Positions 5,961 to 31,459 of a DNA stretch of 64,000 bases are shown piece by piece. The notes beneath the pieces are model-generated. The model was not told the DNA's origin. It made no database searches and saw only the letters and a list, made by a program, of their open reading frames with translations. This DNA comes from Flavobacterium pallidum (GTDB lineage: Bacteria > Bacteroidota > Bacteroidia > Flavobacteriales > Flavobacteriaceae), in the NCBI RefSeq assembly GCF_003097535.1, contig NZ_CP029187.1, forward strand, positions 2,356,001 through 2,420,000, read 5' to 3'. The position numbers and the translations under genes are program-made. Positions within the stretch are counted from its first letter, which is position 1. Each line of letters begins with the position of its first letter.

Positions 5961-6047
5961 TGCCCTAGCCCGGATGGGAGCGGCATCCTTTTTCTGCCTT
6001 CTTTAGGCAGGAAAAGATACAGCGGACAGCCGGATCAGCTCCTTAAA
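5961..6047. repeat. Dispersed foldable element, copy A (Flavo-1-like)
   Basis: One of seven related intergenic elements in this window. Read on the plus strand it has GCCCGGATGGGAGCGGCATCC, a variable hairpin (arms CTGCC / GGCAG), then AAAAGATACAGCGGACAGCC, GGATCAGCTCC and an A-run. CCGG near the 5' end can pair with CCGG near the 3' end. It lies between icd and thiN. The transcribed strand is not established. It resembles the Flavo-1 RNA motif as I remember it; that match is unverified. Confidence 0.6.
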
Positions 6048-6105
6048 ATCAGTAGGAGCAGCGGGCAGTATGCCGACGTCTGTAGAAAATGAAACCAATT
6101 GCGAT

Positions 6106-6131
6106 TAAAAAAAAAGCGACCCGAAAGCCGC
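6106..6131 (-). terminator. Terminator of icd
   Basis: On the minus strand a short stem GCGGC / GTCGC (one G-U pair) with a TTTCGG loop is followed by a run of nine T, seven bases past the icd stop codon. Confidence 0.6.
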
Positions 6132-6138
6132 CTTATAT

Positions 6139-8361
6139 TTAATTCAACTTAGAAAGGATTGAATTCAGTGTTTCGCTTGGCCTCATGGCCGAATCCGTTT
6201 TGGCGTTATCCGGTTTGTAATAGCCGCCGATGTCCTGTTTTTTGCCTTGTGCGCCGATAAGCTCGGCGTTTATTTTGGCCTCGTTTTCAGTCAATGCTTT
6301 TGCGATTGGTTCGAAAACTGCTTTCAGTTCTGCATCTTTATTTTGTGCCGCCAACGCCTGTGCCCAGTATAACGCAATATAGAAATGGGAACCGCGGTTG
6401 TCCAGTTCGCCCACTTTACGCGCAGGCGATTTGTCGTTTTCAAGGAATTTCTCGTTGGCATTGTCTAAAGTTTCAGATAAAACCAAAGCTTTGCTGTTGT
6501 TCAGCGTTTGCCCCAAATGTTCCAAAGAAACGCCCAATGCCAGGAATTCGCCCAAAGAATCCCAACGCAAATACCCTTCTTGCAGGAACTGCTCTACGTG
6601 CTTTGGTGCAGAACCACCGGCACCGGTTTCAAACAATCCGCCGCCATTCATCAATGGCACGATCGAAAGCATTTTAGCGGAAGTTCCTAATTCAAGAATA
6701 GGGAAGAGGTCGGTTAAATAATCACGCAATACATTTCCGGTTACTGAAATCGTGTCCTTGCCGTCTTTAATCCTTTCCAACGAGAAATTGGTCGCAGCGA
6801 TGGGATTTAAGATGCGGATATCGAGTCCGTTTGTATCGTGGTCTTTTAAATATAAATTGACTTTTTCAATGAGTTGCCTGTCGTGCGCGCGGTTCTCATC
6901 AAGCCAGAAAACGGCTGGCGTATCTGATAATCTCGCACGGTTTACGGCCAGTTTTACCCAGTCGCGGATGGGCGCATCCTTTACCTGGCACATACGGAAG
7001 ATATCGTCTTTCTGTACTTTTTGTTCGAAAAATACTTCATCATTATTCCCGATGACCTTAACGATACCATCGGCAGTCATCTGGAACGTTTTATTGTGTG
7101 AGCCGTATTCTTCGGCGGCTTGCGCCATCAAACCAACGTTTGGTACGCTTCCCATGGTTTTCGGGTCGAAAGCACCATGTTTTTTGCAGAAATCGATGGT
7201 GGCTACGTACACTCCGGCGTAACATCGGTCCGGAATAATGGCCTTGGTGTCCTGTCCTTTACCTTCGGCATTATACATTTGTCCTGATGTACGGATCATC
7301 GCCGGCATCGAAGCATCGACAATCACATCTGAAGGCACGTGAAGGTTCGTGATTCCTTTATCTGAATTGACCATGGCCAAAGCAGGTGCGTTTTGATAAA
7401 CTTCATTAATGGCGGCTTCGACTTCAGCCTGCTGCGGATGTCCCGCGATTTTTGCGTACACATCGCCCAGACCATTTTTAGTGTCAATTTTTAATTCTGA
7501 AAAAAGTGTGGCGAATTTTTCAAAGACCGGGGCAAAAAATACATCAACTACCGCTCCGAAAATAATCGGGTCCGAAACTTTCATCATCGTCGCTTTCAGG
7601 TGTACTGAAAACAAAACGTTTTTGGCTTTCGCGTCCTCAAATTCCTTTGCGATGAATTTCTTAAGCGATGAAATACTCAATACCGCGCTGTCAATCACTT
7701 CACCTGCCAATAGTGGCGCGCTGTCTTTTAAAACCTTCGTATTTCCATGGTTATCGGTAAATTCAATCCTGAAGGTGTTGGCTTCTTTTACGGTCATCGA
7801 TTTTTCACTTCCGTAGAAATCACCGCCATCCATACTAGCCACGTGCGTTTTTGAATCGGCACTCCAGGCACCCATGCTGTGCGGGTGTTTTCTGGCATAA
7901 TTCTTCACGGCTTTCGGCGCACGGCGGTCCGAATTTCCTTCGCGCAGCACCGGATTTACCGCAGAACCCAATACTTTCGAATATCTTGCTTTGGCATCTT
8001 TTTCCTGGTCGTTCGCGGGATTTTCCGGATAATCAGGAATGCTGTAACCTTTGGCCTGTAATTCCTTAATCGCTTCTTTCAATTGCGGTACCGAAGCGGA
8101 AATATTAGGCAATTTGATGATATTGGCTTCCGGCGTTGTGGCGAGTTTTCCCAATTCAGACAGATCGTCATTGATCCTTTGGTTTTCAGGGAGCAAATCG
8201 GCAAAATTCGAAATGATCCTTCCGGCTAATGATATATCGCGTGTTTCCACGTTGATGCCGACTGGCGCTGTGAATGCTTTTACAATCGGTAAAAAGGAAT
8301 GTGTCGCCAGCATTGGTGCCTCATCGGTAATCGTATAAAAAATGGTAGTTTTATCAGACAT
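6139..8361 (-). CDS. icd: NADP-dependent isocitrate dehydrogenase, monomeric type
   Basis: Oxidatively decarboxylates isocitrate to 2-oxoglutarate in the TCA cycle, producing NADPH. At 740 residues from [16 protein letters not shown] this is the large monomeric (IDH-II) type, unrelated in length to the common 45-kDa dimeric enzyme. Recognisable blocks include [15 protein letters not shown], the NADP/substrate region with [11 protein letters not shown], and [30 protein letters not shown] motifs near the C-terminus. An in-frame ATG at 8394 exists, but it lies within a TATCTTTG promoter element (8392-8399), so the ATG at 8361 is the better start. Confidence 0.95.
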
Positions 8362-8391
8362 TGGTAAAAATTTAGTTTGTTTCAAGGATTG

Positions 8392-8399
8392 CAAAGATA
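8392..8399 (-). promoter_or_regulatory. -7 element of the icd promoter
   Basis: TATCTTTG on the minus strand fits the Bacteroidetes TAnnTTTG consensus. It ends about 30 bases upstream of the chosen icd ATG and overlaps the alternative upstream ATG, arguing against that start. The -33 box is weak. Confidence 0.5.
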
Positions 8400-29908: not shown

Positions 29909-29933
29909 AAAGGTAATTTTTTAAATCCCCGGG

Positions 29934-31280
29934 TCAGATGCCGAGGTAGTTTGAAGGACTGATATTCAGCAATTCCTGCTTAATGGCATCACTGACATCC
30001 AGGGTTGCGATAAAGTCGTGGATCGCTTTTTTATCGATGGTAGTATTGGTGCGTGTTAGCCCTTTCAAGGCTTCATATGGATTCGGGTACCCTTCACGAC
30101 GTAAGATCGTCTGGATCGCTTCAGCAACGACTGCCCAGTTTTTTTCGAGGTCTTCTGCGAATTTATCAGCATTCAGCAATAATTTATTCAGGCCTTTCAG
30201 CGTCGCTTCAAATCCGATCAATGTATGCCCCATCGGTACGCCTATGTTTCGCAACACCGTACTGTCGGTCAAATCGCGCTGCAATCTTGAAATCGGTAAT
30301 TTCGCCGATAAATGCTCGAAAATAGCATTGGCAATGCCTAAATTCCCTTCTGAATTTTCAAAATCAATCGGGTTCACTTTATGTGGCATCGCTGACGAAC
30401 CGATTTCCCCGGCCTTGATTTTCTGCTTAAAATAATCTATTGAAACATAGGTCCATACATCACGGTCCAGGTCAATCAAAATCGTATTGATCCTTTTCAA
30501 AGCATCAAAAAATGCGGCAAAATGATCGTAATGCTCAATCTGCGTCGTCGGGAACGAATGCTGTAAACCCAGCGCACCTTCGACAAAATGATTCCCGAAA
30601 TGCTTCCAGTCAATTTCCGGATAAGCCACGTGATGCGCGTTGAAGTTTCCTGTTGCACCGCCAAATTTCGCCGCAAACGGAATATTGAACAACAAGCGCA
30701 ACTGCTCCTCAAGCCTTTCTACAAAAACCCCGATTTCCTTTCCGAGTCGGGTAGGGGAAGCCGGCTGCCCGTGCGTGCGTGCCAGCATTGCAATGTCTTT
30801 CCATTCAATGCTTAATTCCTTTAATTTATTGATGAGTTCAATCAACAGCTTTAAATACACATCCTGAAAAGCTTCTTTTGTAGAAAGCGGAATTGCGGTA
30901 TTATTAATGTCCTGCGATGTCAGCCCGAAATGAATAAATTCCTTGTATTTCGCCAGGCCCAATCCGTCAAATTTTTCCTTGATGAAATATTCCACGGCTT
31001 TCACGTCGTGATTTGTCGTCTTTTCAGTCTCCTTGATCCAAAGCGCATCTGCGGTGGAAAAATCCTTGTAAATAAGCCTGAGTTTTTCAGCCAGGTTCTG
31101 GTCAATGCCGCTCAGTTGCGGCAACGGAATCTCGCAAAGGGCAATAAAATATTCGATTTCTACCAATACGCGGTAACGGATCAAAGCCTCTTCCGAGAAA
31201 TATTTTGACAGTGAAATGGTCTTGCTGCGGTATCTTCCATCAATCGGTGAAATGGCGTTCAGCGCGGTCAGGTCTTGCAT
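29934..31280 (-). CDS. purB: Adenylosuccinate lyase
   Basis: Acts twice in purine synthesis: on SAICAR and on adenylosuccinate, releasing fumarate. The 448-residue length and sequence fit the E. coli-type enzyme. Visible motifs: N-terminal ISPIDGRYRSKTISLSKYFS, TNHDVKAVEYFI, the LTSQDINNTAIP substrate site, ARTHGQPASPTRLGKE (catalytic His) and the fumarase-superfamily signature GSSAMPHKVNPIDFEN. First gene of a likely purB-antiporter transcript. The promoter has TATATTTG about 27 bases upstream. Confidence 0.97.
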   Translation of the reverse strand: MQDLTALNAISPIDGRYRSKTISLSKYFSEEALIRYRVLVEIEYFIALCEIPLPQLSGIDQNLAEKLRLIYKDFSTADALWIKETEKTTNHDVKAVEYFIKEKFDGLGLAKYKEFIHFGLTSQDINNTAIPLSTKEAFQDVYLKLLIELINKLKELSIEWKDIAMLARTHGQPASPTRLGKEIGVFVERLEEQLRLLFNIPFAAKFGGATGNFNAHHVAYPEIDWKHFGNHFVEGALGLQHSFPTTQIEHYDHFAAFFDALKRINTILIDLDRDVWTYVSIDYFKQKIKAGEIGSSAMPHKVNPIDFENSEGNLGIANAIFEHLSAKLPISRLQRDLTDSTVLRNIGVPMGHTLIGFEATLKGLNKLLLNADKFAEDLEKNWAVVAEAIQTILRREGYPNPYEALKGLTRTNTTIDKKAIHDFIATLDVSDAIKQELLNISPSNYLGI

Positions 31281-31306
31281 TTTTTGTGTTGTTTTTGCGT
31301 TAAAAG

Positions 31307-31337
31307 CAAATATAACCCTTACGTTTTAAACGCGAAA
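31307..31337 (-). promoter_or_regulatory. purB promoter
   Basis: Minus strand TTTC (31337-31334), 19 bases, TATATTTG (31314-31307), about 27 bases before the purB ATG. Confidence 0.55.
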
Positions 31338-31372
31338 GGAATCGAAATCAATAAATGTTATTTTTTTGGTAA

Positions 31373-31459
31373 TTTTCAGGAGCTATATCCCGCTCTCCGC
31401 TATATCTTTTTCTTTTTTAAGGAAAAAGAAAAAGGATGCCGCTGCGATCGGGGCTAGGG
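31373..31459. repeat. Dispersed foldable element, copy E (Flavo-1-like)
   Basis: Plus strand TTTTCAGGAGCTATATCCCG, CTCTCCGCTATATC, a T-rich/A-rich hairpin (CTTTTTCTTTTTT / AAAAAGAAAAAGG-type arms), ATGCCGCTGCG, ATCGGGGCTAGGG. The outer pairing is CCCG/CGGG. It lies between the sirtuin end and the purB promoter; read this way it is antisense to both. Confidence 0.6.

Follow-up and report, generated by a model that had tools for sequence, protein, structure and literature searches.

Known systems and the elements studied here

Flavo-1 (RF01705) is given in the table of Weinberg et al. (2010, PMC2864571) as probably an RNA, not cis-regulatory and not a switch. In a transcriptome study of F. psychrophilum (PMC9723704), Flavo-1 matches were reported in sense or antisense orientation indistinctly and many of them outside transcribed regions, and the table of a 2022 review (PMC9029176) carries the entry without a function. 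The available excerpts of these three papers give no function for the family; PMC3765529 and PMC7682815 also belong to the Flavo-1 literature. Neither the titles and abstracts found on flavobacterial intergenic repeats nor the excerpts of PMC6325685 contain anything on it. Here we analysed a stretch of 64,000 nucleotides from Flavobacterium pallidum (contig NZ_CP029187.1, positions 2,356,001 to 2,420,000; the window), which contains five Flavo-1 copies, A to E, and compared them with the copies in the rest of the genome and in other species.

By analogy, the nearest working model for these copies appears to be the REPIN populations, which according to the excerpt of PMC8049555 are mainly inherited vertically, replicate at very low rates and persist if useful to the host. 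As far as the available parts of PMC3116915 and PMC8049555 describe them, REP and REPIN sequences resemble Flavo-1 in being high-copy intergenic folded repeats with mainly vertical inheritance. They differ in being palindromes of 20–40 bp, whereas Flavo-1 is about 88 nucleotides long and has internal loops. REP sequences carry a GTAG or CGTC tag at one palindrome end (excerpt of PMC3733652) and go with the RAYT transposase, whereas the Flavo-1 copies have no such end tag and the F. pallidum genome has no match to a Y1 transposase. In the Bacillus cereus group, the bcr repeats are likewise families of intergenic repeats, some of which have a conserved RNA fold, and about half of their copies are read within untranslated regions or other transcripts (excerpt of PMC3446304). 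They belong to a different phylum and are likened here by description, not by sequence. bcr1-bcr3 are called MITE-like (like miniature inverted-repeat transposable elements) in the same excerpt, a nature not shown for Flavo-1.

We found that the Flavo-1 copies of F. pallidum are largely inherited in place, which is a new finding. The reading we prefer, to which we give about an even chance, is that they are old, host-retained, REPIN-like structured repeats, in which the Flavo-1 strand folds and the inner hairpin is overwritten by ectopic gene conversion. Since many copies keep their place and strand in relatives while their central hairpins change, they are likely kept for the usefulness of the folded single strand and not for continued jumping. 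None of the excerpts of PMC2864571, PMC9723704 and PMC9029176 mentions that sites persist, that modules turn over or that wobble pairs are asymmetric.

Flavo-1 copies in the window and in the genome

A sequence-only reading had placed five foldable elements in the window and noted a resemblance to Flavo-1. The covariance-model check that it proposed, run as cmscan with Rfam 15, found all five at these places above the gathering score of 42 (44.4–77.8 bits, E-values from 1.8e-15 to 2.8e-6), and the resemblance proved correct. These E-values, together with the lack of any Flavo-1 match in 14 unrelated control genomes, exclude chance. The scan returned six Rfam matches, five to Flavo-1 and one to an L19 leader, and no further match when relaxed to E<=0.5. 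Copies A, B, D and E have no non-standard consensus pair marked and thus keep every one, whereas C has three. The fixed outer words described for the copies are visible in the cmscan alignments, and the copy alignments bear out that the central hairpins differ in sequence while the stem is kept. The compensatory double change noted for the outer pairing is seen as CCGG/CCGG in A and B and CCCG/CGGG in D and E; in C, however, the outer pair is broken, with C opposite A. The limits assigned to the copies are wider than the model matches and are sensible, as conservation of the short type runs from about CCCTAG (71 copies) through GCTCCTGAAAA (64 copies). The statement that the copies lie only between genes needs a qualification for C, which falls within the longest-start version of the open reading frame (ORF) 19940-21538 yet lies upstream of its peptidase domain and is therefore probably intergenic.

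In the whole genome we found 110 Flavo-1 matches at E<=0.001, 102 of them above the gathering score. These counts are a lower bound, since 150 of the 989 first-look candidates were scored. The copies lie on both strands, as had been noted for the window, with 58 on one and 52 on the other, and a crude ORF caller placed 11 of the 110 inside an ORF. Their consensus starts with CCTAGCCC and ends with GCTCCTGAAAA. There are two types of closure: the short one reads CCCTAGCCC(C/G/T)GAT...AGC(G/C/A)GGAanAGCTCCTGAAAA, and the long one reads GCGTNAGGGAT...AGCCCG, followed by a small hairpin and then by CACGCC and A-rich sequence. An A-rich 3´ end is common to both. Copies with the long closure stand in the lower-scoring part of the genome list or are missed by the Rfam model, as are two in the window (Table 1), which have a GGTCCCRTTAT..ATAACGGGAGGCGCC arm in common and for which cmscan reported no Rfam model even at E<=0.5. 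A pattern search allowing one mismatch gave 11 half matches of the GGCAGCC type in the genome; a separate pattern for a GGCAGCC/GCTNCAGCG variant gave no match. In two pairs of copies, #59/#80 (L058/L076) and #70/#90 (L068/L085), at least 45 nucleotides 5´ of the element are identical within the pair, so that larger units must have been duplicated along with them.

Sites and strands shared with related species

Of the genomes searched, G088 is the closest relative; one window protein is 93% identical there, and 97 Flavo-1 matches are listed for it. By means of both flanks, 107 of the 110 F. pallidum sites could be mapped in G088 (three were not resolved); 62 of them carry a listed Flavo-1 there, and the strand agrees in all 62. 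Sharing extends to more distant species: G007 (77% identity in the same protein) has 10 of the best-scoring 30 of its 86 copies between the same pair of genes as a copy of F. pallidum, and G057 (68% identity) has 7 of the best 30 of its 64 copies so placed, with the strand agreeing in 10 of 10 and 7 of 7 cases, respectively. Two of the seven sites shared with G057, #70 and #90, lie in duplicated surroundings and could be a single site. For G007, a looser test gave 11 shared sites among the best 30 copies, all 11 on the same strand.

Four F. pallidum copies by the strict test, and five by the looser one, are unlisted in G088 yet present in G007 and thus represent losses in G088. Strict sharing with G007 loci was about equally frequent among the copies shared with G088 (6 of 62) and those absent from it (4 of 45). 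We saw no sign of recent gains in the F. pallidum lineage, though a few could hide among the tested copies.

The five window copies illustrate the range of outcomes in G088. Sites D and E are occupied by Flavo-1, D with a compensatory change of a stem pair from T-A to C-G; site C is occupied on the same strand by a copy with a longer, unrelated apical hairpin. No Flavo-1 is listed at the other two: site A has kept the 5´ arm but contains a different palindrome, and at site B the flanks are about 4 kb apart, compared with a gap of about 0.2 kb in F. pallidum, and the region (G088:C1:2197628-2201616) holds one loose pattern match that is unlike the Flavo-1 family.

Changes at a shared site

The comparison of orthologous copies rests on 51 of the 62 pairs, since the parser dropped 11 of the 110 F. 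pallidum and 15 of the 97 G088 copies. Hairpin length differs in 35 of these pairs. Agreement between orthologues, compared with random pairs, was 0.84 versus 0.28 for the two bases before GAT, 0.82 versus 0.37 for the base after AGC, 0.69 versus 0.38 for the pair after GAT, 0.71 versus 0.54 for the middle class (defined by C, AA or T preceding ATCC) and 0.33 versus 0.12 for the first six hairpin bases. An earlier parser that kept 40 pairs gave the same order. Across segments, identity was 0.90 in the 5´ and 0.89 in the 3´ core segment and 0.70 and 0.74 in the flanks (random: 0.80, 0.82, 0.56 and 0.56).

In the middle classes, each form on one arm goes with a fixed partner on the other, C with A and AA with TG, and mixed forms are almost nil, so that a switch of class needs several linked changes. 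At site #13, F. pallidum, G088, G007 and G057 all have GCTTCAAATAAAAA at the 3´ end but four different inner modules; at sites #11 and #76 one species has the short closure and the other the long one. Identical hairpin modules reappear at non-orthologous sites in both F. pallidum and G088. Taken together, the outer stem stays while the middle and the apical hairpin change, likely by exchange between copies rather than by stepwise mutation. In the 16 of the 51 pairs with hairpins of equal length, 137 base pairs are identical, 27 have changed on both sides and are kept, five have changed on one side and are kept, and three are paired in one species only.

Covariation and the folding strand

The sequence-only reading had proposed a test of covariation above background. 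For this we used the 55 of the 110 copies that are 74–84 nucleotides long among the 65 best scores. RNAalifold gave 19 base pairs, 14 of them with changes on both sides. In four of the five measures, the alignment lay above its shuffled control. Of 1035 cells 96.7% pair (79.7% shuffled), double changes occur in 171 cells (46 shuffled) and the covariation score is 0.444 (0.131 shuffled, at most 0.084 in slid versions). The outer pair is C-G in 26 copies, G-C in 21, U-A in seven and U-G in one, and the base after GAT meets the one before AGC in all four Watson-Crick combinations; among 181 parsed copies of F. pallidum and G088 this position pairs in 166 and is unpaired in 15. Pairs across the conserved internal loops (columns 10-83 and 15-79) covary as well. 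An alternative terminator hairpin, GATN..N'ATCC with a T run, was rejected by eye on the aligned copies, since the position following GAT covaries with the one preceding AGC (15-79) and not with the one preceding ATCC.

Which strand folds can be read from the wobble pairs, since a G.U on one strand is an A.C on the other. Counting isolated non-Watson-Crick positions in distinct apical hairpins of F. pallidum and G088, we found 36 G.U, three A.C and 20 other mismatches (G.U versus A.C, p=3.6e-8). Without the recurrent ..GGAAAA subfamilies the numbers are 22, 3 and 14 (p=0.0002), and in G007 and G057 together 10, 0 and 4 (p=0.002). G.U dominates in all these counts, which are linked by common ancestry, and thus the Flavo-1 strand is the folding strand. 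This asymmetry favours RNA, or single-stranded DNA from the Flavo-1 strand, over a symmetric cruciform. The idea that the copies are double-stranded DNA sites, cruciforms or protein-binding sites for chromosome organisation, would agree with their orientation-blind placement in gaps of every kind and with the separate terminator-like hairpins that precede the element in 23 of 40 roomy cases. A cruciform uses both strands, however, and should treat G.T and A.C alike, which does not fit a ratio of 36 to 3, and we regard this explanation as very unlikely; folded single-stranded DNA of one strand remains compatible with the ratio. Of the two natures offered by the sequence-only reading, a structured RNA or a mobile repeat, RNA is therefore favoured over double-stranded DNA. 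Mobility is plausible for the past only, given that sites are inherited across species and no gain was identified.

It could also be asked whether the stems are a mutational by-product of quasi-palindromes without selection on the fold. Template switching, by which one arm is rewritten as a copy of the other, can give double changes at one locus in a single step, and the observed rise of turnover from the outer stem inwards to the apical hairpin is in line with such a process. However, pairs split by conserved internal loops (10-83, 15-79) covary too, the core segments are better conserved between orthologues than the flanks, and the wobble asymmetry also argues against it, making this explanation improbable in our view.

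Gene surroundings and observations against the preferred reading

With genes called by simple ORF rules, copies within 20 nucleotides of a gene 3´ end are more frequent than after random placement in the same gaps, both in F. pallidum (42 of 77, p=0.004) and in G088 (47 of 78, p=0.001). Copies near gene 3´ ends are also more often kept in G088 (32 of 43 versus 30 of 64; Fisher p=0.005, uncorrected). A role at transcript ends is thus possible but not general. REP sequences in E. coli act as elements of transcript ends, and by analogy folded Flavo-1 RNA might do the same.

Several observations weigh against the reading of the copies as old repeats retained for a folded RNA. Concerning the sites, 45 of the 107 mapped ones have no listed copy in G088, so that single copies are dispensable. 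At least several of these 45 sites carry remnants or relatives of Flavo-1, and some G088 sites that are absent from the Rfam match list have the long closure and an apical hairpin without ATCC...GAT. Site D is occupied in only one of 29 orthologous loci (that of G088) and is not occupied in the relative L281, showing that sites do turn over. As to the modules, agreement is also low in the outermost 3´ tail (0.22 versus 0.04 random), and part of the inner-module pattern could result from compensatory changes made step by step. For the fold, the further-pair-types measure does not exceed the shuffles (125 of 500), and minimum-energy folds of single copies fail to give the consensus fold, with z-scores between -3.6 and -0.3 on the Flavo-1 strand and between -3.1 and -0.8 on the opposite one, so that the case for structure rests on covariation.

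The gene surroundings add to this. The 94 F. pallidum copies with called neighbours comprise 27 sense tandem, 32 antisense tandem, 18 convergent and 17 divergent placements (31, 36, 15 and 23 of 105 by a second method); antisense is as frequent as sense, and for many copies reading on the Flavo-1 strand is therefore not to be expected. G007 (6 of 19, p=0.55) and G057 (3 of 16, p=0.74) show no preference for gene ends, and the results for F. pallidum and G088 are not independent, as 62 sites are common to both. The -7 promoter motif of Bacteroidota is TANNTTTG; within 80 nucleotides of the F. pallidum copies this consensus reads into the copy in 11 cases, near the shuffle expectation, and away from it in 33. 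The respective numbers are 12 and 33 in G088 and 3 and 7 in G057, with the opposite trend in G007 (8 and 6).

The promoter counts also bear on the possibility that each copy is an independent small RNA (sRNA) gene with its own promoter, which the Rfam type label 'Gene; sRNA', the strand-specific folding and covariation, and the occurrence in either orientation to the genes, as own transcription units could have, would all suit. Next to the low number of motifs reading into the copies, there is no strong shared motif 5´ of the 71 short copies (maximum 0.26 bits from -70 to -6 of AGCC; 0.04 in a control stretch). Many Flavo-1 matches lie outside transcribed regions according to the excerpt of PMC9723704, and we consider own promoters unlikely.

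Seven of the 94 copies each fill a gap between convergent genes that both end within 22 nucleotides of the copy, among them copy D with gene ends at 7 and 11 nucleotides, as would be expected if the element were an orientation-blind intrinsic terminator common to convergent genes. A simple scan, however, scored the element as an intrinsic terminator in only five (sense) and six (antisense) of the 110 copies, since its T run precedes the stem rather than follows it, and 17 of the 94 copies lie between divergent genes, so that a terminator function is highly doubtful. Separate terminator-like hairpins were found between gene end and copy in 23 of the 40 cases with at least 35 nucleotides of room; on the opposite strand there were six over all 86 stretches.

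Mobility and spread

A non-autonomous REPIN- or MITE-like element that continues to be moved in trans would account for the high copy number on both strands, for the patchy numbers among relatives (0 in some, 97 listed in G088, 110 here), for the patchy distribution in the phylum, where 57 of 395 sampled genomes match (46 above the gathering cut-off), and for the A-rich 3´ end common to both closure types. The F. pallidum genome, however, has no Pfam match to a Y1 (RAYT/IS200-type) transposase (PF01797; five of 14 controls positive) or a reverse transcriptase (PF00078), the two enzyme types that the search covered, other transposase families lying outside it. No gain was identified in the lineage and some copies absent from G088 are common to G007; copy E has no blastn match in plasmid or phage collections; and there is no replication-strand bias (50 leading and 60 lagging in F. 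pallidum, 45 and 52 in G088, by a noisy origin estimate on partial sequence). Movement that still goes on is thus not probable. Unoccupied sites exist in G088, with flanks too diverged for reading insertion junctions or target-site duplications. A link to reverse transcriptase was dropped: PF00078 was found in 20 of 40 relatives with no evident relation, by eye and without a statistic, to the number of Flavo-1 matches, being absent with 110 (F. pallidum) and 73 (G001) matches and present with none (G020).

Within the genus, 140 of 150 sampled genomes have Flavo-1 and ten have none, under stricter filters with which weak matches are lost. The ten are G018, G020, G048, G073, G091, G099, G100, G102, G138 and G145; in nine of them the match to the window gene 27686-29908 is weak at best or missing; G099 has 44% identity. 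Loss of Flavo-1 may therefore follow lineage.

Table 1. Flavo-1 copies, their long-type relatives and further features of the window (coordinates of the window)
Feature	Position	Model match	Strand	Score (bits)	Remarks
Copy A, short-type Flavo-1	5961..6047	5963-6040	+	73.6	
Copy B, short-type Flavo-1	9799..9889	9807-9887	-	63.9	divergent genes either side
Copy C, short-type Flavo-1	21284..21367	21289-21367	-	44.4	divergent copy
Copy D, short-type Flavo-1	27592..27679	27601-27678	-	67.6	fills convergent gene gap
Copy E, short-type Flavo-1	31373..31459	31382-31459	-	77.8	tandem genes either side
Long-type relative	37770..37889		+		GCGCC..GGCGCC outer arms, GATCGCAGCGG..ACAGCGGAG core, other apical hairpin
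Long-type relative	53618..53714		+		GCGCCAGGGATCGCAGC..GCGGAGAGCCC..GGCGCC; outer and core arms as in long-type copies
L19-Flavobacteria ribosomal protein leader	8953-8980		-	39.3	
Strong inverted repeat	3607-3685				CAGTCGCAGT-like units
AT-rich head-to-tail repeat	23830-23941				28 nucleotides, about four copies

The nearest named loci of a window gene are from Flavobacterium. One locus, L359, lies on a contig titled as a Klebsiella pneumoniae metagenome-assembled genome and encodes a protein 69% identical to the Na/H exchanger of the window; this contig is probably mis-binned.

Meaning for the Flavo-1 family

The family was known and the observation made in the window is real; what is new is the mode of evolution and which strand folds. 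In the reading we prefer, the folded molecule would be an RNA made by transcription running in from neighbouring genes, and we predict that the copies reached their present sites long ago and in trans, by some enzyme. A related but bolder idea, which we think distinctly unlikely, is that Flavo-1 is an RNA-level repeat lacking a promoter, with an inner module that is copied between loci via the folded single strand into the sites of old copies. If true, the addresses in the genome would be fixed while the RNA cassettes at them were interchangeable, and the copying would work with neither a RAYT-type nor a reverse-transcriptase gene in this genome.

Lists have carried Flavo-1 as a probable RNA since 2010, and the stable sites, swappable modules and strand-specific wobble now give tests that can be run. 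If the exchange between copies holds up, the family would exemplify concerted evolution among bacterial repeats of very short length.

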